Shown here: one piece after another, positions 2 to 16,074 of the stretch
How positions within the stretch are numbered: the stretch's first letter is position 1
Layout: every line of letters starts with the position of its first letter
DNA from: a virus
Reading direction: 5' to 3' (one strand)
IMG/VR virus record: IMGVR_UViG_3300013118_000263
Location: 1-24,069 of that record
Length of the DNA stretch: 24,069 bases
Position numbers and translations under genes: made by a program
The notes under the pieces: generated by a model
Told to the model about the DNA's origin: nothing
The model's database searches: none
Seen by the model: only the letters and a program-made list of their open reading frames with translations

Positions 2-1588
2 GGACGTCAAACCTTCAAAACTACAACCTGTTCAGATATTCTAGGAAATGCCGTTACAGCGTACAATAACGTTGAAGCCGGTTATGTAGCAGATAATGAA
101 GCCCACTTGGGAGCCTTTTCACTACAAAGATTTAGGAAACAAACTATGATACAGAATCCTAAATTAAGACAATTCTTGCCCGGAAAGGGCAGAGCCAATA
201 TTGGATCTACTGTTTTACTAAATGACTCAATCGCTTATCTAATGACAGATGAGAATGAATACAACAAAGTTGAAGGCAAATCACTATCTGTCCTAATGTT
301 AGATGAGGCACAATATCAAGATGTGCAGTTCTTATCTAAAGCCTTTTACACCTTATCTCAAACTCATGGAAGATTTTATTGCTTTGGTATTGGAGGAGAA
401 GCAGGATCTCCTTACAATGAAATGTGGGAAAGAACAGATCAAAGGGAATGGGTTTATGATGATCCTGAATGGCGTACTAGATTAGAGTTTGATAATAGAG
501 GCACGATAATTAATGAGCCGGACGAACTAAAGAGCATACTAGCAGGAAGATGGACTCCAAGAAAACCGGAGAATACTCAATACAGAGGTTATCATATGCC
601 TCAAGAGATGTTCGCAACTATTCCGTTAACAATTCGGGACGCCATAGACAAATACAAAGTTCAACCGGAATTATCTATTGAATGGCAACGTGAGAATAAT
701 CCTAAATCCATTTATCTTTCTCACTGTAAAGGAGAATTTTTCAAAGCAGAAAGACGTCCAATTACTCCGGAAATGGTCAAGAATTGTATGAATCCTTATC
801 GCTATATGCCTTTAATGACTACCAATGAGATTAAAGAAATTAAAGAAACCTTTGGAAATGAGGTTAGAATCCTTATGGGAGTCGATTTTGGTAGTGGTAG
901 TTCAGCAGGATCATTAACTGTTATCTCTATTCTAATTCATTGGAGGAAATCAAAGAGATACCAACTTGCCTTTATTGATAGACGTCCTCAAGAGAATCAA
1001 ATAGATCAATCTAGGTATATTGCTGATTTATTCCGATCCTGTAATTGTGACTATGGAGTTGGAGATTTAGGTTATGGACAGATTCAAGTTAAATTAATTC
1101 AAGATGGAGGCAGAGATTCTAAAGACAATCCATTTAGTGGATTAGGATCTTCTCACTTTGTAGGAGCAAGAAGTACAGGAGATCTTCATAAGGAAAATTC
1201 AGAGTTTAGAGAAACAACTGACGAGCATGGAACTGAAATATCTAGGATAAATATCTCCAAAACAGCAGCAATTCAAAAGTTCATAGATCTACTAGAGTGG
1301 AATGTATCTCACCCTAATTTCCCGGAGGATAAAACATACAACCGTCCTAAACTTATGATCCCATATCAGAATGATTATGAAGTTGACTTTTTGGTAACTG
1401 ACCTATGTGCTACAACTAGAAAAGATTTGGAACAGGACGCAGATTTAACAGTTGAAGATCCTAGACAAATGGCTAAAAAAGAGTTTAATCACCCGGCAGA
1501 TTCTATGATGAGTTTAATCTATTGCTTTTCAGCAGATGAGAACTTTGATGAAGGAGCATATTCGATTAGCAGGACTTCACGCAGTTGA
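2..1588 (+). CDS. terL: Terminase large subunit (DNA-packaging ATPase/nuclease), 5' end outside window
   Basis: This is the motor that pumps genomic DNA into the prohead through the portal and cuts it. The frame is open from base 2, so the TTG at 107 is not the true start; about 528 residues are visible. At nt 2-25 the protein reads GRQTFKTT, a Walker-A-like P-loop with Phe where most families have Gly before the Lys. SVLMLDEAQ at nt 287-313 is a clear Walker B with the catalytic Glu, followed by FGIGGEAGSP as a coupling-type motif. The C-terminal RNase-H-like nuclease starts with GVDFGSGSS (Asp codon at 884) and has CDYGVGDLGYG and HPADSMMS as the likely second and third acidic motifs. It lies upstream of the portal, as expected, but is separated from it by about 1.4 kb of tiny genes. 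The family call is secure from these motifs; the packaging type (cos or pac) cannot be told. Confidence 0.93.
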   Translation, partial: GRQTFKTTTCSDILGNAVTAYNNVEAGYVADNEAHLGAFSLQRFRKQTMIQNPKLRQFLPGKGRANIGSTVLLNDSIAYLMTDENEYNKVEGKSLSVLMLDEAQYQDVQFLSKAFYTLSQTHGRFYCFGIGGEAGSPYNEMWERTDQREWVYDDPEWRTRLEFDNRGTIINEPDELKSILAGRWTPRKPENTQYRGYHMPQEMFATIPLTIRDAIDKYKVQPELSIEWQRENNPKSIYLSHCKGEFFKAERRPITPEMVKNCMNPYRYMPLMTTNEIKEIKETFGNEVRILMGVDFGSGSSAGSLTVISILIHWRKSKRYQLAFIDRRPQENQIDQSRYIADLFRSCNCDYGVGDLGYGQIQVKLIQDGGRDSKDNPFSGLGSSHFVGARSTGDLHKENSEFRETTDEHGTEISRINISKTAAIQKFIDLLEWNVSHPNFPEDKTYNRPKLMIPYQNDYEVDFLVTDLCATTRKDLEQDADLTVEDPRQMAKKEFNHPADSMMSLIYCFSADENFDEGAYSISRTSRS

Positions 1589-2988: not shown

Positions 2989-4569
2989 TTGACTTGGAAG
3001 AGCCGTTTGGCAAATAGTTTAGGCAAATTGGGTATTCAATCCGAATCTCCTTATCAAAGAAATAATGGAACGTCAGTAGATGTTCATGCTTTACAAGACG
3101 CCATGAGTGGTTTTTCTCAGCCAGTTTGGGGAGCAGAAATTAATACAGTTGGAGCATATTCCCGTGAAGGTTATACTTCTAAAACTAGAGATACACCTGT
3201 CGTCAAATTTAGAACTCAAGCAAAGGCTATGGAACAAGATGAGGACGTTCAACTAGCAATTAATCACTTATCATCTAAAGTTACAGGAGGAGCGCATTAT
3301 TGGAAGGCTCAAGACGATATGGTTGAAGATCATATTTCTAAATTCTCTAAACAAATTGACTTTGATTGGTTTGATACTATTTTGGTTAAGGAATTATTAG
3401 GCTATGGAAATTCAGTTTGGAAACCACGTTTGGGAATTGCTAACATTAGAAATAAAGACGATTTAATGCAGATACCAATTTCATCTTTTGTCGCAGTATG
3501 GTGGGACAGGCAAAGACGTCCTTACAAGTATGAATTTAGAGGAGCAGAATATCAAGGCTATCATAATCCTCAAGACATTATTGCTTTTAATTGGAATCCA
3601 GTAAATGGTAGTGTAATTGGTAATGGCTTCATTACTGCTTTAACAGTGCAAAAAACATTTGATCAAATTACACCGGCAGGAACTGAAACTAACACTTTGC
3701 CTTCACTACTTGATAGAAAATACTCAACTCACATGACCATGCACATAGCAGAAAGAAGATACATTCCTCATAATGTCTATGTCGCAGAAGGAGCAAACCA
3801 AGATGAAAGATCTCAACTTGCTAGTGATGTAAATACGCTTAATCCGGGTGAGGACTTTGTAGTTGGTAAGAAAGTAGAAGTTCAAGAATTAGGATCTGGA
3901 CAGAGAGCCTTTGATCCAACATTATTTAGTGATTTGACTCAAGGAGGAATTTTCAAGGCATTGAATGACTTTAGAGGCAAAATGGCGCAAGAGAGTTCAC
4001 ATCAATTTGCCAATGCCGAAGAATCATCAGTGTTAGACGAAATTGGGCTTGCGTCCTTCCCATTAGCAGTCACTAGACAACTTGAAGCCAAACTTTTCAA
4101 ACCTTGGTATAATTCCAATCCTATGTATTCAGCCAATTATGGAGGAGGATTAATCTCAATGCCTTATGAGGAATGTGAATACGAACTTAACTTTGGACGA
4201 CAAAAGAAAGTCGATATTGAACCTGAACAGGCTATGAAATTAATTGAAATAGGTATTAGTTCAGGAGCAATTCAAGATCCTAATGAGATAAGAGAATTGC
4301 TTGAAGATCATGGACTAGGATTAAGAAAAGAATTTGCAATGGCTCTAATGAATCAATATAATCCTGTCATGCCCGGAATGCCTCAAGTAATGCCTCAACA
4401 ACCATACCAATTCGATAATCAAACAATGGGCAATCCTCCAATGAACAATCAGAATTATAATACAGAAGGCAATAGATTTGTCCCTGAAAGATATGACGGT
4501 CAACCTTCCAATCCAAGACAAAACTTTGCTTGGACTAAAACGCAGTACACGAAAAAACCTCAATTATAG
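2989..4569 (+). CDS. Portal protein (526 aa)
   Basis: The portal forms the dodecameric ring at one head vertex through which terminase packages DNA and to which the tail attaches. Length fits the family. After an N-terminal arm, the wing/stem-like core contains the portal-style segments VWWDRQRRPYKYEF and IAFNWNPVNGSVIGNGF at about residues 166-215, then a helical region and an HQFANAEESSVLDE segment. The last 70 residues are rich in Pro, Gln, Met and Asn and look disordered. The TTG start is chosen because it lies 29 nt after the shared promoter element and no ATG is better placed. The next gene starts 2 nt after the stop, so portal, ADP-ribosyltransferase-like and protease genes form one unit. 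The call rests on order and motifs. Confidence 0.85.
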   Translation: MTWKSRLANSLGKLGIQSESPYQRNNGTSVDVHALQDAMSGFSQPVWGAEINTVGAYSREGYTSKTRDTPVVKFRTQAKAMEQDEDVQLAINHLSSKVTGGAHYWKAQDDMVEDHISKFSKQIDFDWFDTILVKELLGYGNSVWKPRLGIANIRNKDDLMQIPISSFVAVWWDRQRRPYKYEFRGAEYQGYHNPQDIIAFNWNPVNGSVIGNGFITALTVQKTFDQITPAGTETNTLPSLLDRKYSTHMTMHIAERRYIPHNVYVAEGANQDERSQLASDVNTLNPGEDFVVGKKVEVQELGSGQRAFDPTLFSDLTQGGIFKALNDFRGKMAQESSHQFANAEESSVLDEIGLASFPLAVTRQLEAKLFKPWYNSNPMYSANYGGGLISMPYEECEYELNFGRQKKVDIEPEQAMKLIEIGISSGAIQDPNEIRELLEDHGLGLRKEFAMALMNQYNPVMPGMPQVMPQQPYQFDNQTMGNPPMNNQNYNTEGNRFVPERYDGQPSNPRQNFAWTKTQYTKKPQL

Positions 4570-10631: not shown

Positions 10632-10644
10632 GAGTGAAATGAAT

Positions 10645-10833
10645 ATGTCAAAACTTTTCTGTAAAAGATGTAGAGCCGAAGCAGAAGGCAAGAACTTCGC
10701 AGAATGTGACTCCAAAATAGACCACGCAAGAGGTTTATCCATTGGACGCAAATGTGCAGGACTTGAATCTGATTTAGTTTTCACTGATACAGCAAAAGCC
10801 AAAGTGATAGCAAAAAAGTCCACTAGCAAATAG
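10645..10833 (+). CDS. Small zinc-binding protein after capsid gene (62 aa)
   Basis: Two in-frame ATGs exist, 10639 and 10645. The second is chosen because GGAGTG (10631-10636) lies 8 nt before it but only 2 nt before the first. The N-terminus has CKRC at residues 6-9, then C21 and C37 with a His between (CDSKIDHARGLSIGRKC), a possible zinc-binding set. The C-terminus is basic (KAKVIAKKSTSK). Co-transcribed with the capsid gene and closed by a strong terminator, so likely made in quantity; a minor capsid or DNA-binding role is possible. No family recognised. Confidence 0.65.
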   Translation: MSKLFCKRCRAEAEGKNFAECDSKIDHARGLSIGRKCAGLESDLVFTDTAKAKVIAKKSTSK

Positions 10834-10860
10834 TGGCAAACCTTTTTTCCTTTTTATTTT
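10820..10860 (+). terminator. Perfect hairpin plus T-tract terminator closing the capsid unit
   Basis: CCACTA (10820-10825) and TAGTGG (10831-10836) form a 6-bp perfect stem with a 5-nt loop; the stop codon is the first part of the second arm. A T-rich tract follows at 10843-10860. This ends the decoration-capsid-zinc protein transcript. Confidence 0.75.
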
Positions 10861-10904: not shown

Positions 10905-11105
10905 ATGAACTGGACAAAACGTGGAGCAAAACTTTTAGCAACTTATATCACAGGATATTCCGGTGGAATGGGAACACTTCTAGCATTGGGTGTAATGGAC
11001 TCTCATGTAACATTCCATTTACTATTTACGATCCCAAATATAACGGGATTAATCACGGCTCTGCCACAATTAGGGAAAATATTGAATGAATATGGGACAG
11101 AATGA
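10905..11105 (+). CDS. Holin-like small membrane protein (66 aa)
   Basis: Of two overlapping frames here, this one is chosen because it encodes two hydrophobic segments (about residues 10-31 and 36-56) between a basic N-terminus (MNWTKRGAK) and a short charged tail, and because its ATG is 27 nt after a TATA-like box. Size and layout fit holins, which open the cytoplasmic membrane at the end of infection. It opens the module that also holds a secreted protein and two zincin-like proteins. The stop overlaps the next start (ATGATG). Holin function is inferred; it could be another small membrane protein. Confidence 0.62.
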   Translation: MNWTKRGAKLLATYITGYSGGMGTLLALGVMDSHVTFHLLFTIPNITGLITALPQLGKILNEYGTE

Positions 11106-11218
11106 TGAATTTTAAATCTTTTCTAGAAAATAAAATTAACTCATATTATTCCAATGGTAAAAAATCTAAATGTTGGAAATACAACTTTTGTAATCTTTTT
11201 GACAGTGTTGATGATTAA
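11105..11218 (+). CDS. Hypothetical small basic protein (37 aa)
   Basis: ATG 11105 shares one base with the upstream stop, and its own stop overlaps the next ATG (TAATG). The product is rich in Lys, Asn, Ser and aromatic residues with two Cys (KCWKYNFC), possibly a single metal or disulphide site. Translation by coupling is likely from the chained overlaps. Function unknown. Confidence 0.5.
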   Translation: MNFKSFLENKINSYYSNGKKSKCWKYNFCNLFDSVDD

Positions 11219-11343
11219 TGTCTAACCCTGAAAGAGTCTTTGGAACATTAAACTCAGAAGGTGTTTTCCTGTTTCAGGAGGGTTCAAACTGTATCTTATA
11301 TCTACTAATTCATCATGGTAAACCTTTAGTCAATATTATTTAA
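11218..11343 (+). CDS. Hypothetical small protein (41 aa)
   Basis: Starts in a TAATG overlap with the previous stop. The product has a soluble N-terminus (SNPERVFGTLNSEGVFLFQEGS) and a moderately hydrophobic second half (CILYLLIHHGKPLVNII) that looks like strands or a weak membrane-associated segment. Its stop lies at the first base of the repeat block before the ribbon-helix-helix gene. No family recognised. Confidence 0.5.
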   Translation: MSNPERVFGTLNSEGVFLFQEGSNCILYLLIHHGKPLVNII

Positions 11344-11376
11344 TTACAAAACTACATAATTACAAAATTACAAAAC
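11342..11376 (+). repeat. Three direct AATTACAAAA repeats, probable operator
   Basis: AATTACAAAA occurs at 11342-11351, 11358-11367 and 11366-11375, at steps of 16 and 8 bp, ending 7 bp before the ATG of the ribbon-helix-helix gene. Ribbon-helix-helix proteins bind short repeats of this kind as dimers, often before their own gene, so autoregulation is the simplest reading. Confidence 0.55.
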
Positions 11377-11382
11377 GCCATA

Positions 11383-11490
11383 ATGACAAAAACACTAACT
11401 ATTAGTGACGACATACATAGATCACTAAAAATGGAAGCAGCAAAAAGAGGCATTTCCATTAGTGAACTAGCAGAGGAGAAACTGAAATGA
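11383..11490 (+). CDS. Minimal ribbon-helix-helix (CopG/Arc-type) regulator (35 aa)
   Basis: The 35-residue product is close to the smallest possible ribbon-helix-helix unit: a strand (KTLTIS), helix A (DDIHRSLKMEAAKR), a GIS turn and helix B (ISELAEEKLK). Dimers of this fold insert the paired strand in the DNA major groove; here the contact residues would be Lys3, Thr4 and Thr6. It lies just after three AATTACAAAA repeats and overlaps the secreted-protein gene by ATGA, so it probably controls this unit, including itself. The helix-B end is short, so stability may depend on the dimer. Family call is strong from the pattern. Confidence 0.8.
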   Translation: MTKTLTISDDIHRSLKMEAAKRGISISELAEEKLK

Positions 11491-12509
11491 AGATTGCAAT
11501 AATGTTTGTAATTGCTTTTCTAGTAGGATCTTATGCCTATGTTTATGCCGAAGAACAAACAGTTGACGAATCAGTTATTGTTCCGTTTGAGTTCAATGGT
11601 AGAGTTTGTGGAATGTTAGAGAATGGTAATTTTGTTTGTGAATGGGATCCATCAATCATTGATCTAAATGATATTATGGCTAACGGAACAACAGCAATCC
11701 CTAATCCAACCGAAGCAAGCACAACCGTTAATCAAACAGAAGCAGAACCTGAACCAACAGTTGAGGAAGAACCTGAAACAATCCTTACAAAGTTTGAGAA
11801 AGATCTTGAAAGATTAGAACAACAAGAAAAACTCAATTCAATAGATAAGGAATATTTGGCGCTGCTAAAGAACTTAGCAGAATGTCAAAGAGGTTATGCT
11901 GAATCATTCGGAGTAATGGAACCCTCATCATTCCCAATATCCTACACTTGGATAAATGATAGAAATGGCGAATCTCCTGAATGGACTAAATCCTTTGATT
12001 ATAAAGGACGACATGCTGAACTCAAAAAAGGTATTGAAGAATGTAAAGCCATTCGCACGATCCTCAATCCAGTGACTTTAGGAGTTTATACATTACACAT
12101 GGGACAACACTTTGGATCTATCCAACCTCATCATTCTGAAAAGGCAATAGTTGATGAAGGTAGATGGCTAGATGTTAAGACTCATGTTCCACTCAATGAA
12201 CACAATTTCATAGAGTCACTTGAGGACGCAAAGAACGCAATTTGTAATCATACCTTATACGAACAACGAACAAAGGATTATGCAAATTGTCCTCCTATCC
12301 AATATCCCGAAGGTGATATTGTAAACCAAAAGAGATTCATCGAATATGGATCATCAGTTGAAGATAAATGGAAAAACTATCTCACTGACGGAGGTTTACA
12401 ACAGGCTAAGCAAATAATGGGTGAAAAACTAAGAGAGAAGGCAGAACAACTTAGAGAAACCCAAGCAATACAAAGTCAACAATACACTGGCGAAGGTTAC
12501 GGACAATGA
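11487..12509 (+). CDS. Secreted coiled-coil protein (340 aa)
   Basis: The N-terminus is a clear Sec signal peptide: MK, a hydrophobic core (IAIMFVIAFLVGSYAYV) and a likely cut after YA at about residue 21, before EEQ. The mature part starts with a small two-Cys domain (VCGMLENGNFVC), then an acidic Pro/Thr/Glu linker (70-98), a charged coiled coil (100-130), a His-rich middle (YTLHMGQHFGSIQPHH) and a helical Gln/Glu-rich C-terminus. The Cys residues come in pairs, suiting disulphides outside the cell. GAGGAG (11473-11478) lies 8 nt before the ATG. It overlaps the regulator and the zincin gene (ATGA both times), so the three are made together. It may act on or bind the S-layer; no family recognised. 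Confidence 0.72.
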   Translation: MKIAIMFVIAFLVGSYAYVYAEEQTVDESVIVPFEFNGRVCGMLENGNFVCEWDPSIIDLNDIMANGTTAIPNPTEASTTVNQTEAEPEPTVEEEPETILTKFEKDLERLEQQEKLNSIDKEYLALLKNLAECQRGYAESFGVMEPSSFPISYTWINDRNGESPEWTKSFDYKGRHAELKKGIEECKAIRTILNPVTLGVYTLHMGQHFGSIQPHHSEKAIVDEGRWLDVKTHVPLNEHNFIESLEDAKNAICNHTLYEQRTKDYANCPPIQYPEGDIVNQKRFIEYGSSVEDKWKNYLTDGGLQQAKQIMGEKLREKAEQLRETQAIQSQQYTGEGYGQ

Positions 12510-12925
12510 GTCCAACCACTTTATTTTTTCTAATCGTAGTTATAGCAATTTTTGTAATTGGAGTCATGAAAGTTTATGGGGATACTCCGGACGAAATTAT
12601 TTGGGCAGTAAATGAAGAACATGGATTGAGAGCCGTCCCGATTTACTATGTAGATGAGATTGAAAATCATGGAGAGCATACTAAAGGTGTTTACAATCCT
12701 GTATTAGATGAAATTAGAATACTTAAAGGAGTAGGCGATTTTTATGCTGTTCCCGGTTGCACTATTCGAGATCACGAAATATTACATGCTTGGGGATATG
12801 ACCACGTATCCATGCAGGAGTTTAATTGCCCAAATCCAAACGTAGATTATGACGCTTTACAGTATAGAGAAACTTTTGTTAAACACTGGAATCCGAATTA
12901 TGAGTGGAATGGTTATGAACGATAA
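12506..12925 (+). CDS. Membrane-anchored metzincin-like zinc protease (139 aa)
   Basis: An N-terminal hydrophobic segment (residues 5-21, LFFLIVVIAIFVIGV) without a clear cut site should anchor the protein with the rest outside the cell. Residues 90-100 read HEILHAWGYDH, a full HExxHxxGxxH motif: His90, His94 and His100 as zinc ligands and Glu91 as the catalytic base, as in metzincins. Met103 soon after could relate to the Met-turn, though closer than usual. Cys85 and Cys108 flank the site and could be bridged. At 139 residues it is far shorter than most metzincins. It overlaps the secreted-protein gene (ATGA). A cell-surface protease that loosens the S-layer for virus exit or entry fits the context; this is inference. 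Confidence 0.8.
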   Translation: MSPTTLFFLIVVIAIFVIGVMKVYGDTPDEIIWAVNEEHGLRAVPIYYVDEIENHGEHTKGVYNPVLDEIRILKGVGDFYAVPGCTIRDHEILHAWGYDHVSMQEFNCPNPNVDYDALQYRETFVKHWNPNYEWNGYER

Positions 12926-13016
12926 TACTTACAAAGCCTTATTCACTGGACTAGTGATAGGCATGGTTTTCTCAATAGTCACTTTCTCAATAGGATATTA
13001 TGTGATTCCAAAATGA
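12915..13016 (+). CDS. Small single-span membrane protein (33 aa)
   Basis: The frame overlaps the zincin stop; ATG 12909 is also possible and adds two residues. The product has a short polar N-terminus and one hydrophobic span (LFTGLVIGMVFSIVTFSIGYYV), and its stop overlaps the ATG of the zinc-ribbon gene. Size and setting suit a second pore protein or a holin regulator. Too short for a family call. Confidence 0.55.
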   Translation: MNDNTYKALFTGLVIGMVFSIVTFSIGYYVIPK

Positions 13017-13153
13017 AACCTACTTGTCCTCACTGTAATAGTGAAAACTTGGATCAAGGATTAAACGGAAATATTCTTTGCCATGATTGTAAAAACTTCT
13101 TTAGGTTACTAGCCACATGGGTAGATCCCTGTTCAATCACTAGTAATAACTAA
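13013..13153 (+). CDS. Small zinc-ribbon protein (46 aa)
   Basis: ATG 13013 overlaps the preceding stop (ATGA). CPHC at residues 5-8 and CHDC at 23-26, 14 residues apart, form a compact zinc ribbon with the usual Asn-Gly turn between. The rest is short with one more Cys. Such ribbons are used for protein or nucleic-acid contact. It is odd to find it within a membrane/secretion module, which suggests a control role rather than a surface one. Function unknown. Confidence 0.65.
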   Translation: MKPTCPHCNSENLDQGLNGNILCHDCKNFFRLLATWVDPCSITSNN

Positions 13154-13160
13154 ATAATAT
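13151..13160 (+). promoter_or_regulatory. TATA-like box before the two-span membrane gene
   Basis: TAAATAATAT starts 27 nt before the ATG at 13178, matching the leaderless spacing. GAGG (13167-13170), 7 nt before the same ATG, also looks like a ribosome-binding site. Read-through from upstream would use the GAGG, and the local box would give a leaderless copy. Confidence 0.45.
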
Positions 13161-13177
13161 CACTATGAGGATTTGAT

Positions 13178-13417
13178 ATGGGAAATTTACCATTTGATAA
13201 ATCCGACACTGCTTTAATTGTCGGATTAGTCTTTTTGGGAATATTCGCAGGATTAGTCGTTTACATTATTGCTGACGCAGATCTAACAGAAATTAAGATC
13301 ACAGGTAATATTGACGCAAACTACATCTTTGGAATATTTACCGGAATAGTAATTGCCTTTATTGGATTCATCGGAATCACTAGAGGTAAAGTAACAACTC
13401 AAGGAAGTCAAAATTGA
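13178..13417 (+). CDS. Two-span membrane protein, second holin candidate (79 aa)
   Basis: Two hydrophobic spans (about residues 11-32 and 50-67) are joined by a polar loop (DADLTEIKITGNIDAN), with a basic, polar C-terminus. This is the size and topology of class II-like holins. The stop overlaps the TTG of the HExxH gene (TTGA), so membrane protein and zincin are paired here just as they are upstream. Alternatively it could anchor or export its neighbour. No sequence family recognised. Confidence 0.6.
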   Translation: MGNLPFDKSDTALIVGLVFLGIFAGLVVYIIADADLTEIKITGNIDANYIFGIFTGIVIAFIGFIGITRGKVTTQGSQN

Positions 13418-13959
13418 CTTTCATTTTTTCTACTGACAACATAAATCCGAAAGTCTATGAAAAGATTTTCAGAAGATTCTTTATGCTTCAATTTGGTTGG
13501 GAGGATTGGGTTGTTTTCAATAGAGAGTTTGACGTCCATATAGTCCCGGTTGAAAAATCAGATCAATATCGTCAAATGTATGGATTAACTTCTTGGAATA
13601 CTTCTAATGCTATACCTTGGGGATTCACTCAACCTCCAAATGTCGTATCAAATAACACTGTAAAAGGTAGGGTATTTTGGTTCGTTAATGATACTAAAAA
13701 CCCGTTTATTCTAAGACAGAACGCTGAAAAGGGACTCCATGAAGCACTCCATGCCGGTTGTTGGATAGTATTCGGGACGGAACGTATGAAAAGGAAATAT
13801 GATGATCCTCAAGCAAAAGCCGGAACAGAAGGAGCAAAGTATGTTATTGTTCCACATGATGTAGCATACGGCACTAAAGAAACTATCACTTTTTGGATTA
13901 GATATGGAATAATTTGGCTTCCAATAAAGGCATTATCCGTTAGAAATTATTTGCCTTGA
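13414..13959 (+). CDS. HExxH zincin-like protein (181 aa)
   Basis: TTG start overlaps the upstream stop. Residues 109-113 read HEALH in the setting EKGLHEALHAGC, the zinc-binding helix of metallopeptidases: His109 and His113 as ligands, Glu110 as base. The third ligand is not obvious; His148 (IVPHD) is a candidate, so this is a different subtype from the HExxHxxGxxH protein upstream. The N-terminal half is aromatic-rich with possible strands (FDVHIVPVE, KGRVFWFVND). No signal peptide is seen, so it may act inside, be released by a holin or ride in the virion. It closes the module just before a new promoter. A late lysis or adsorption protease is inferred. Confidence 0.65.
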   Translation: MTFIFSTDNINPKVYEKIFRRFFMLQFGWEDWVVFNREFDVHIVPVEKSDQYRQMYGLTSWNTSNAIPWGFTQPPNVVSNNTVKGRVFWFVNDTKNPFILRQNAEKGLHEALHAGCWIVFGTERMKRKYDDPQAKAGTEGAKYVIVPHDVAYGTKETITFWIRYGIIWLPIKALSVRNYLP

Positions 13960-13993: not shown

Positions 13994-14554
13994 ATGGGAT
14001 TCTTACATGAAATAGATCTTTTCTTGGGAAAGGCATTACAGAATCTTCAATGGTATTTCAATCACGAACTGCCAATAGCATTAGGCATGAAAGAAAATAG
14101 TATTTCTCAAGGACGATTAACTGTTATTAAAAATAAAGGTAAATGGAATGAAGAAATTATTTGTGAAAATAAAAGAAATTTGTTAACTGACGCAGGACGA
14201 ACTAAAGCCCATGCACAAATTTACACTAATACCTCAGCAGGAGCCAGAGGTTGTGGATACATTGCCGTCACTGTAAATACTGGAACTCCGGCAGATGGTG
14301 ATACTGTTCTTACAGGTGAAATCACGACAGGAGGTTTAGCAAGGGCTGACGCTTCAACAAAATCTACTTCAACAAATACTACTACAATATCTCACACTTT
14401 TACTGCTTCTGCAACTCATACTGCCGTCCAAAAAGCAGCATTATTTGACGCAGCAAGTTCAGGGACAATGTATCATATTAACACCTTTACAGCAACAACT
14501 TTAATCTCATCTGACACCTTAACTGTCACATGGACTTTGACTTTAGACGATTAG
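13994..14554 (+). CDS. Fibre/adsorption-type structural protein (186 aa)
   Basis: The N-terminal 35 residues are helical and hydrophobic (FLHEIDLFLGKALQNLQWYF) and may attach to another virion part. The rest is beta-rich and Thr/Ser/Ala-rich. ENKRNLLTDAGRTKAHAQI followed by a GxGYIAV strand and a TPADGDTVLTGEI segment is a pattern I associate with phage tail-associated proteins that begin N-L-[LV]-x-D-A-G-R. It opens the unit of fibre-like genes. Its exact place in the particle cannot be told. Confidence 0.6.
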   Translation: MGFLHEIDLFLGKALQNLQWYFNHELPIALGMKENSISQGRLTVIKNKGKWNEEIICENKRNLLTDAGRTKAHAQIYTNTSAGARGCGYIAVTVNTGTPADGDTVLTGEITTGGLARADASTKSTSTNTTTISHTFTASATHTAVQKAALFDAASSGTMYHINTFTATTLISSDTLTVTWTLTLDD

Positions 14555-14568
14555 AGGAATTACAATAA

Positions 14569-16074
14569 ATGACTCTTGCCTCAACTTCTTGGAAAGAAGC
14601 AACAGATACAACATCAGGAGATTCTACCAAATACGGAGTCCCTGACGGATTATTACTTTATGCACAATTATTCAATGGAGATCTTAATGTTGATAATGTA
14701 GATATTAACTCACCTTGGTTTTTTAGGACAGGCAAATGTCAATTTCAGAATACTGCTAACACTTTTGGATTTAACATAGATTCAAGTGCTGCTATTGTAG
14801 CCGACAGAGATGTAGCATTTCCACTCTTAACTGGAAATGATACCTTTGTTACAGAAGCCATGATACAATCCATTTCCTCTAAAAAGATTGGTAATTGGTT
14901 AGATTCAGTTGAAATTGCTGCTCCATCTAGTCCGGCAGCAAGTGAACATAGATTATACTTTGATTCAACTTCTAATCAGTTTACAACTAAGAATAGTGCA
15001 GGAACTGTGCAAGAATTTACAACCAATTCAGGAACTCAAACTTTAACAAATAAGACCATTACAACTCCAACAATCACTATCCTAGACAACGCATGGACAA
15101 TGCAAGATAATGCTGATAATACTAAACAATTACAATTCCAATTATCAGGAATTACAACTGCAACAACTAGAACAATTACAATTCCTGATTTATCAGGAAC
15201 TTTAATGACTTCATTAGTTGAAGATACAACTCCGGATCTTGGAGGAACGTTAACAGGATCTGGATTTGATATTACCGGATTAGGAACTGTATCAATGACA
15301 GAACAGGCAGCAGCAAACGCTGATGTAGCCGGTGACGGTCAATTATGGGTTAAAACAGCAGTGCCTAATCAATTATGGTTCACAGATGATGCAGGAACTG
15401 ACTTTCAACTTGCAACTTTAACAGGAACAGAAACTTTAACCAATAAGACTATTGACGGAGATAACAATACAATTTCCAATCTAGCCATTGGAGCAGAAGT
15501 ATCAGCAACATTAGGAGCAGATGTGGAAATGGCAGGATACAATCTCCAAAACGGTGGTGTAATTTTCCTAACTGAACAAGCAACTGCTGACGCTGACGCA
15601 GCAGGTGAAGGACAGATTTGGGTTAAGACGGCAACACCTAATGAATTATGGTTTACTGACGATGCCGGCACTGATTTTCAAGTAGCCTCTAAAACAGGAA
15701 CTCATGCAGCAACAGAAGCAATAGGAATAGCAGTTGGAGATGAAACAACCGTATTGACCACAGGAACCGGCAAAGTTGAATTTCAAATGCCTTATGCTTT
15801 CACATTAACAGATATTAGAGCAACTGTCACTACTGCTCCTACAACTGACGCAGGATTCACAGTGGATGTCAATGAAGGTGGAACGTCACTTATGACAACA
15901 ACTAAAATAACTATTGATGCAACTGAAAAGACTAGTGCAACAGCAACAACTGCTCCTGTATTAACTGACACATCTTTGGCTGATAGTGCAGTAATAACAG
16001 TGGATATTGACGCATTATCCTCCGGAGGAACAGAGGCAGGACTTAAAATCTGGCTTATAGGTTATCAAACTTAG
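14569..16074 (+). CDS. Repeat-containing tail-fibre protein (501 aa)
   Basis: Strongly beta-rich, Thr-rich protein with internal repeats. The unit GQ[LI]WVKTAxPNxLWFTDDAGTDFQ occurs twice (near residues 260-285 and 345-370), and a related, diverged segment lies near 125-155 (HRLYFDSTSNQF and VQEFTTNSG). Each unit is followed by, or near, GT[EQ]TLTNKTI, a short motif common in phage tail-fibre shafts. The C-terminal 120 residues lack the repeat and read as a beta-sandwich (KVEFQMPYAFTLTDIRATV), likely the tip that binds the host. AGAGG lies 11 nt upstream, so the ribosome-binding site is weak. Role: host attachment. Confidence 0.75.
   Translation: MTLASTSWKEATDTTSGDSTKYGVPDGLLLYAQLFNGDLNVDNVDINSPWFFRTGKCQFQNTANTFGFNIDSSAAIVADRDVAFPLLTGNDTFVTEAMIQSISSKKIGNWLDSVEIAAPSSPAASEHRLYFDSTSNQFTTKNSAGTVQEFTTNSGTQTLTNKTITTPTITILDNAWTMQDNADNTKQLQFQLSGITTATTRTITIPDLSGTLMTSLVEDTTPDLGGTLTGSGFDITGLGTVSMTEQAAANADVAGDGQLWVKTAVPNQLWFTDDAGTDFQLATLTGTETLTNKTIDGDNNTISNLAIGAEVSATLGADVEMAGYNLQNGGVIFLTEQATADADAAGEGQIWVKTATPNELWFTDDAGTDFQVASKTGTHAATEAIGIAVGDETTVLTTGTGKVEFQMPYAFTLTDIRATVTTAPTTDAGFTVDVNEGGTSLMTTTKITIDATEKTSATATTAPVLTDTSLADSAVITVDIDALSSGGTEAGLKIWLIGYQT
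15299..15698 (+). repeat. Two diverged copies of a ~125-bp coding repeat
   Basis: Copies at about 15299-15423 and 15571-15698 encode matching WVKTAxPNxLWFTDDAGTDFQ units. They differ mostly at third codon positions, so the repeat is kept by selection on the protein rather than by recent duplication. Confidence 0.7.

Follow-up and report, generated by a model that had tools for sequence, protein, structure and literature searches.

The window analysed here, the complete IMG/VR viral record IMGVR_UViG_3300013118_000263 (24,069 bases), carries a block of ten open reading frames (ORFs; positions 10905-13959) between its capsid gene and its fibre and tail genes, and we consider this block to be, more likely than not, a lysis cassette of a virus of an archaeon with a surface (S-) layer, in which a holin is combined with an S-layer protease. 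The observations that carry this reading are the anatomy of the genes, the selection acting on them, the reappearance of the block both in diverged viruses and at different places in the genome, the exchange of its soluble zincin and a link to Nitrosopumilus. The original prediction had described a possible complete archaeal lysis/egress cassette; lysis/egress stands as the best supported reading, while completeness is not established, with one of the ten genes probably not real.

The soluble enzyme that ends the block is in most relatives a matrixin (Pfam PF00413, M10), and matrixins are accompanied by a small membrane gene beyond the clade of the window as well. The matrixin scan of viral contigs reached 32 loci (loci are designated L and records G below), and the matrixins of viral and archaeal genomes formed 38 clusters at 90% identity, 35 of which had at least 400 bases of upstream sequence. 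A small transmembrane (TM) gene, defined as a same-strand ORF of at most 135 amino acids (aa) that contains a predicted span and ends within 400 bases upstream, was found just upstream of 24 of these 35 clusters, as compared with 26 of 219 controls, which were genes of 180 aa or more from the same loci (Fisher p=5e-12, which is a guide only, since spans were called by a hydropathy script and the clusters are homologous). The pair was located after the capsid gene, upstream of a terminase gene (L072), between a terminase-like and a portal-like gene (L142) or behind tail genes (L139), floating among genome positions as lysis genes do. L108, found through a matrixin only 31% identical, begins with the secreted protein and the TM protein, continues with the small exported zincin and the one-span protein, and closes with the two-span protein and the matrixin. 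L121 and L122 combine a two-span protein, a soluble matrixin and a second, signal-bearing zincin with the motif HEFGHALGLGH; the next gene but one in L121 looks similar, by eye, to window gene 13994. A signal-bearing second HExxH protein stood beside the matrixin at L008, L013, L016, L025, L033, L039, L108, L121 and L122. The arrangement that recurs consists of an exported zincin and a small membrane protein, with a soluble zincin devoid of a signal peptide directly downstream of the latter. At L139:7619-14572, on a 1.92-Mb archaeal contig (G208), a tail-gene cluster is followed by a TM gene that overlaps a matrixin, exosome-like genes adjoin, and the stretch read contains no capsid gene; this locus may be what is left of a degenerate provirus, or it may encode a tail-like particle that has been domesticated.

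The assignment of the relatives' enzymes to the matrixins is supported by profile and motif. PF00413 was matched above the cut-off in 14 of 40 records, with E down to 5e-29, and the matrixin profile matched solved catalytic domains of human matrix metalloproteases (MMPs) with E 6.6e-25. The H, E, H, G and H of the metzincin motif were aligned in all 36 matrixins, and 35 of them have the Met-turn Met. Each stands alone as a protein of some 210-280 aa, and 56 of 57 matrixin matches have neither an N-terminal span nor a signal peptide, the exception being L146. Matrixins also occurred in 8 of 14 control genomes, above the cut-off in 5, so the family itself is not viral. PHROGs offered no useful family for them, and a tblastn search of 50,697 phage records with two matrixins and the capsid protein of the window returned nothing.

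In the window, the corresponding position is occupied by zin2 (13414), which is not a matrixin: it has HEALH only and no Pfam matrixin match. Its HEALH...HD motif is conserved at L075 in record G033, where the zin2 relative (L075:12550-13976) adjoins a signal-bearing matrixin; this record is otherwise different, and we found no related capsid protein in it. The two-span proteins of the window and of L016 share 68% identity, but the gene behind them encodes a matrixin in L016 and, in the window, the unrelated zin2. Two unrelated soluble enzymes behind one membrane gene resemble the replacement of endolysins behind one holin.

One column near the N-terminus of the matrixin alignment is filled by Cys in 35 of 36 representatives, the sole matrixin without it being that of L146, which carries the N-terminal span. 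In 30 of 36 matrixins, this Cys or a different one falls within residues 2-13; among soluble control genes the count is 18 of 155 (p=8e-17, again to be taken as a guide, given the homology). No other Cys column of the alignment reaches 75%. In matrix metalloproteases, latency is maintained by a Cys of the prodomain that serves as a ligand of the catalytic zinc. By analogy, the position of the Cys suggests an MMP-like latency switch, although the canonical PRCGxPD sequence was not seen in the matrixins and zin2 of the window lacks a Cys of this kind close to its N-terminus. We also looked in the matrixins for the structural zinc site of MMPs: AHA and GD..H align, HGD seemingly does not, and we make no claim for this site.

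We followed the block through the relatives of the capsid protein. The capsid-protein scan yielded 44 loci and the alignment-based scan 52, and the capsid-related set comprised 39 records (G000-G039 minus G033). A block of this kind lies directly 3' of the capsid gene in 15 of the 39, either in full, in part or truncated where the record stops (G000-G003, G005, G007, G008, G011, G013, G016, G018, G024, G028, G031 and G038), G001 being almost identical to the window. In six more, parts of it lie elsewhere: the secreted protein and small zincin in G004, G027, G029 and G037, and a matrixin with a two-span protein in G019 and G035. Five records end too early to be informative (G006, G012, G022, G026 and G034), so that conservation as a block, proposed beforehand as a check, held wholly or partly in 21 of 34 informative records and failed in 13. 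At L078 the gene order is close to that of the window (RHH, that is, ribbon-helix-helix, protein, secreted protein, TM protein, small zincin, one-span protein and zinc ribbon), and this set lies just upstream of a terminase-like gene. Scans with single proteins reached few loci (one for zin1, three for zin2).

All ten ORFs predicted originally are present (Table 1), and codon comparison with the relative L004 gave a dN/dS ratio (omega) of 0.06-0.38 in nine of them, indicating purifying selection; the constraint on the two-span gene 13178 (0.06) is about that of the capsid gene (0.07). The tenth, 11218-11343, has no counterpart in L004, L005, L013 or L012 and is probably not a gene. The near-universal overlaps of one to four bases that had been described were seen at six of nine junctions; the others are a 39-base gap (11343/11383), a 24-base gap (13153/13178) and an overlap of 8-77 bases between the gene ending at 12925 and the one-span gene, depending on the start codon of the latter. 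As for the individual labels, the 'metzincin-like' protein 12506 (zin1) does carry HEILHAWGYDH, but it matches no Pfam family, and among nine aligned sequences only HExxH is invariant, HExxHxxGxxH being present in the window protein and not in all relatives. The second zincin, zin2, retains HEALH and a later conserved HD without a Pfam metalloprotease match. The term 'holin-like' derives from hydropathy and weak profile matches: for 13178, Pfam Phage_holin_8 gave E 0.003, below its cut-off, and a PHROG holin E 0.096, and a PHROG search with the set of two-span proteins gave scattered, insignificant holin matches. The 66-aa membrane protein 10905 matched neither Pfam nor PHROG.

Table 1. Features of the window in order of position, with omega values from the comparison with L004
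Feature	Position	Strand	Remarks
Terminase-like gene	2-1588		named from order, size and reading of the sequence
Portal-like gene	2989-4569		named from order, size and reading of the sequence
Protease-like gene	6095		named from order, size and reading of the sequence
Cement protein	8971		Pfam Phage_cement_2, E 1.9e-5
Major capsid protein	9456		named from order, size and reading of the sequence
Small zinc-finger-like gene	10639-10833		directly 3' of the capsid gene in most relatives
T-rich archaeal terminator-like stretch	10843..10860	+	TTTTTTCCTTTTTATTTT; separates the capsid and zinc-finger genes from the block
Small holin-like membrane protein, 66 aa	10905..11105	+	omega 0.08; 31% relative in L012
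38-aa protein, motif Y.NG.K..C..Y...N.FD	11102..11218	+	4-base overlap; omega 0.20
41-aa ORF, probably not a gene	11218..11343	+	without counterpart in L004, L005, L013, L012
35-aa ribbon-helix-helix (RHH) protein	11383..11490	+	omega 0.18; Pfam Omega_Repress E 1.1e-6, under the curated cut-off
Secreted protein, signal peptide-like N-terminus	11487..12509	+	omega 0.25; six near-invariant Cys (alignment A3, 11 sequences)
zin1, small exported or membrane-anchored zincin, HEILHAWGYDH	12506..12925	+	omega 0.38
One-span membrane protein	12903..13016	+	start 12849, 12903 or 12918 possible; omega 0.23; kept in L004, L013
46-aa zinc ribbon	13013..13153	+	weak Zn-ribbon matches; omega 0.25; kept in L004, L013, L018, L022, L039
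Two-span holin-like protein	13178..13417	+	omega 0.06, minimum of the block; acidic loop between spans
zin2, soluble putative zincin, HEALH...HD, no signal peptide	13414..13959	+	omega 0.17; 4-base overlap with two-span gene
Downstream border gene	13994..14554	+	adjoins fibre genes; 81-92% identical relatives directly 3' of block in L004, L012, L013

The host is probably a marine ammonia-oxidizing archaeon with a protein S-layer as its sole wall, because a scan of genome contigs found, in a Nitrosopumilus metagenome-assembled genome (MAG), two matrixins that share 62% identity with the L025 enzyme. One of them has a two-span gene 47 bases upstream and cellular-looking genes around it. Both (L123:7615-8630 and L124:7989-8627) are of viral type in a cellular setting and may represent domestication or remnants of proviruses. 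Within Nitrosopumilales, the sole order searched, viral-type matrixins (E<=1e-10) were present in 12 of 400 genomes and relatives of the capsid protein in 4 of 400. The capsid-protein scan of genome contigs found no relative, and hence no provirus of the clade in a named genome by that route. PCNA is encoded in two of the capsid-related records, in keeping with an archaeal host. The S-layer of N. maritimus is described as glycosylated and of immunoglobulin type, and cells stripped of it round up (PMC11153153).

From these features we infer a sequence of events in which pore formation, the S-layer as substrate, latency and timing are the conjectural elements. Late in infection, the exported zincin and the Cys-rich secreted protein would reach the exterior of the membrane and start to loosen the S-layer. 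The two-span protein, perhaps aided by the 66-aa membrane protein, would accumulate and open the membrane in the manner of a class II holin, as its anatomy suggests. The soluble cytosolic zincin (13414 in the window, a matrixin in most relatives) would then exit and cut the S-layer glycoprotein, and the cell would burst. In the matrixins, the N-terminal Cys would cap the catalytic zinc and maintain latency until release. More tentatively, and with doubt outweighing confidence, we propose a lysis strategy without peptidoglycan hydrolases that is shared by tailed viruses of ammonia-oxidizing archaea, in which an exported zincin weakens the S-layer beforehand, a holin next frees a Cys-capped latent metzincin that becomes active outside the reducing cytosol and dissolves the S-layer, and the protease is exchanged among unrelated zincin families according to the coat of the host.

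Several results weigh against a holin and S-layer-protease cassette. The scanned parts of 13 of the 39 capsid-related records (G009, G010, G014, G015, G017, G020, G021, G023, G025, G030, G032, G036 and G039) contain no such block, the scan having stopped 1-4 kb short of the ends of G023, G025 and G032, and G020 being a 13.5-kb fragment; either lysis genes differ in these viruses or the block is not essential. Absence from relatives had been named at the outset as an outcome that would speak against the prediction, and it was found in part, in 13 of the 34 informative records, several of them longer than 40 kb. Upstream of 11 of the 35 matrixin clusters no small TM gene was called; seven of these come from archaeal genomes (L124, L141, L143 and L145-L148), and one, L016, is a miss of the script, the two-span gene overlapping the called start of the matrixin. 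The spacing of HExxHxxGxxH is altered in L073 and L074, with one additional residue between the His of HExxH, and in L033 and L145, with one before the Gly. The holin function of 13178 and its relatives is putative, being suggested by hydropathy and insignificant profile matches. So is the protease function of zin2, whose model is weak (predicted local distance difference test score 58, predicted template modelling score 0.60, from three sequences), with HExxH in a long helix, and gave nothing below E 1 in a Foldseek search of the PDB. The top rows of that search include YbeY and M61 aminopeptidase, which are metalloenzymes of the HExxH type.

The main rival, which we judge unlikely, is a virion-borne entry protease, with zincins of the tail or fibre cutting a path through the S-layer at infection and the membrane proteins being incidental neighbours. 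In the clade of the window the block does sit among structural genes, between those for capsid and fibre, and in L107 the matrixin gene comes after fibre-like genes and has no small TM gene at its side. The matrixins are, however, the stand-alone proteins described above, their position varies while the small TM neighbour is mostly constant, and other members of the block bear signal peptides, which would be unusual for tail parts. Cell-surface remodelling or superinfection exclusion, in which the exported zincin and the secreted protein alter or strip a surface receptor during infection, appears distinctly improbable to us. It would account for the sub-module of these two proteins that was seen without a matrixin being found in L076, L078, L084 and L170, with the RHH gene added in L078, but it leaves the soluble, signal-less zincins behind small TM genes unexplained.

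We hold it very improbable that the block is accessory cargo, swapped as a hypervariable island and made up of intracellular protease or toxin-like genes plus an RHH regulator. RHH proteins are common antitoxins, and the slot is variable, as the 13 of 39 records lacking the block illustrate; against this, L108 preserves gene order and coding logic although its soluble enzyme is only 31% identical, and omega in the block is low.

The lysis cassette favoured here can be compared with the holin-endolysin cassettes of tailed phages (class II), with which it shares a small membrane gene of two predicted spans directly upstream of a soluble, signal-less enzyme, a floating position and the exchange of enzymes behind one membrane gene. 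Class II holins have two spans and both termini inside; for protein 13178 the hydropathy script, rather than a dedicated topology tool, predicts two spans, an acidic loop (charge -3) and a basic C-terminus (+2). In contrast, enzyme class and target are changed, with a (putative) zinc protease in place of a peptidoglycan hydrolase, and an additional exported zincin, a secreted protein and an archaeal host are involved. Among the Pfam matches of the ten block proteins there was neither a peptidoglycan-degrading family nor one of the pseudomurein endoisopeptidase (Pei) type. The relatives' soluble enzymes resemble matrixins (PF00413, MEROPS M10) in profile match, catalytic motif and Met-turn, and differ from them in having no signal peptide, no canonical prodomain and a lone Cys near the N-terminus.

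Among published systems, a Listeria metzincin and TIMP-like pair of phage origin (PMC8235301) is likewise a phage-derived metzincin tied to lysin sensitivity, but it consists of a secreted bacterial protein and an inhibitor-like lipoprotein, and no holin pair is described in the portion at hand. PVAP pyramids and pseudomurein endoisopeptidase also provide virus-coded release from archaeal cells; the former push through the S-layer and the latter cuts pseudomurein, so that neither is a holin with an S-layer protease (PMC12596118, PMC4456609). A 2015 review proposed holins and S-layer proteases for archaeal viruses, stating that S-layer-degrading enzymes were unknown and that no holin gene had been identified in isolated archaeal viruses (PMC4456609). 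A 2025 survey of lytic proteins lists Pei and PVAP for archaeal viruses together with structure-based holin and peptidase candidates (PMC12596118), some of 38 archaeal proviruses are reported to have holin or endolysin genes (PMC11705971), and a term search of a survey on integrated elements of thaumarchaea found no occurrence of 'holin' or 'lysis' (PMC6563490). We found no prior description of the cassette in the open-licence PubMed Central literature. The exit of tailed viruses from S-layer archaea is an open question for which the block supplies concrete candidate gene pairs, rendering the proposal of the 2015 review testable (PMC4456609), and the viruses are linked to marine ammonia oxidizers, which matter for the nitrogen cycle.

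With regard to the remaining features of the window, its genes read, by position and size, as the structural region of a tailed virus, and a megablast search of the window against the 50,697 phage records gave no match. A T-rich stretch comparable to that ahead of the block is present at the same site in L004, L005 and L008, and a shorter one in L013; since such a stretch precedes it, the block may form its own transcription unit. The motif of the 38-aa protein 11102 recurs in L012 and near the matrixin pair of L073. For the secreted protein 11487, the structure model (predicted local distance difference test score 43) was too poor for a structure search. In L008:11664-12827, L010:11601-12707 and L033:11691-12845, an RHH or zinc-ribbon stretch lies N-terminal to the membrane span of the secreted protein; in other relatives these are separate tiny overlapping genes, and a DNA-binding-like domain on an exported protein is odd. 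Finally, the fibre-like protein encoded at 14569-16074 contains internal repeats around GQIWVKTA.PN.LWFTDDAGTDFQ.

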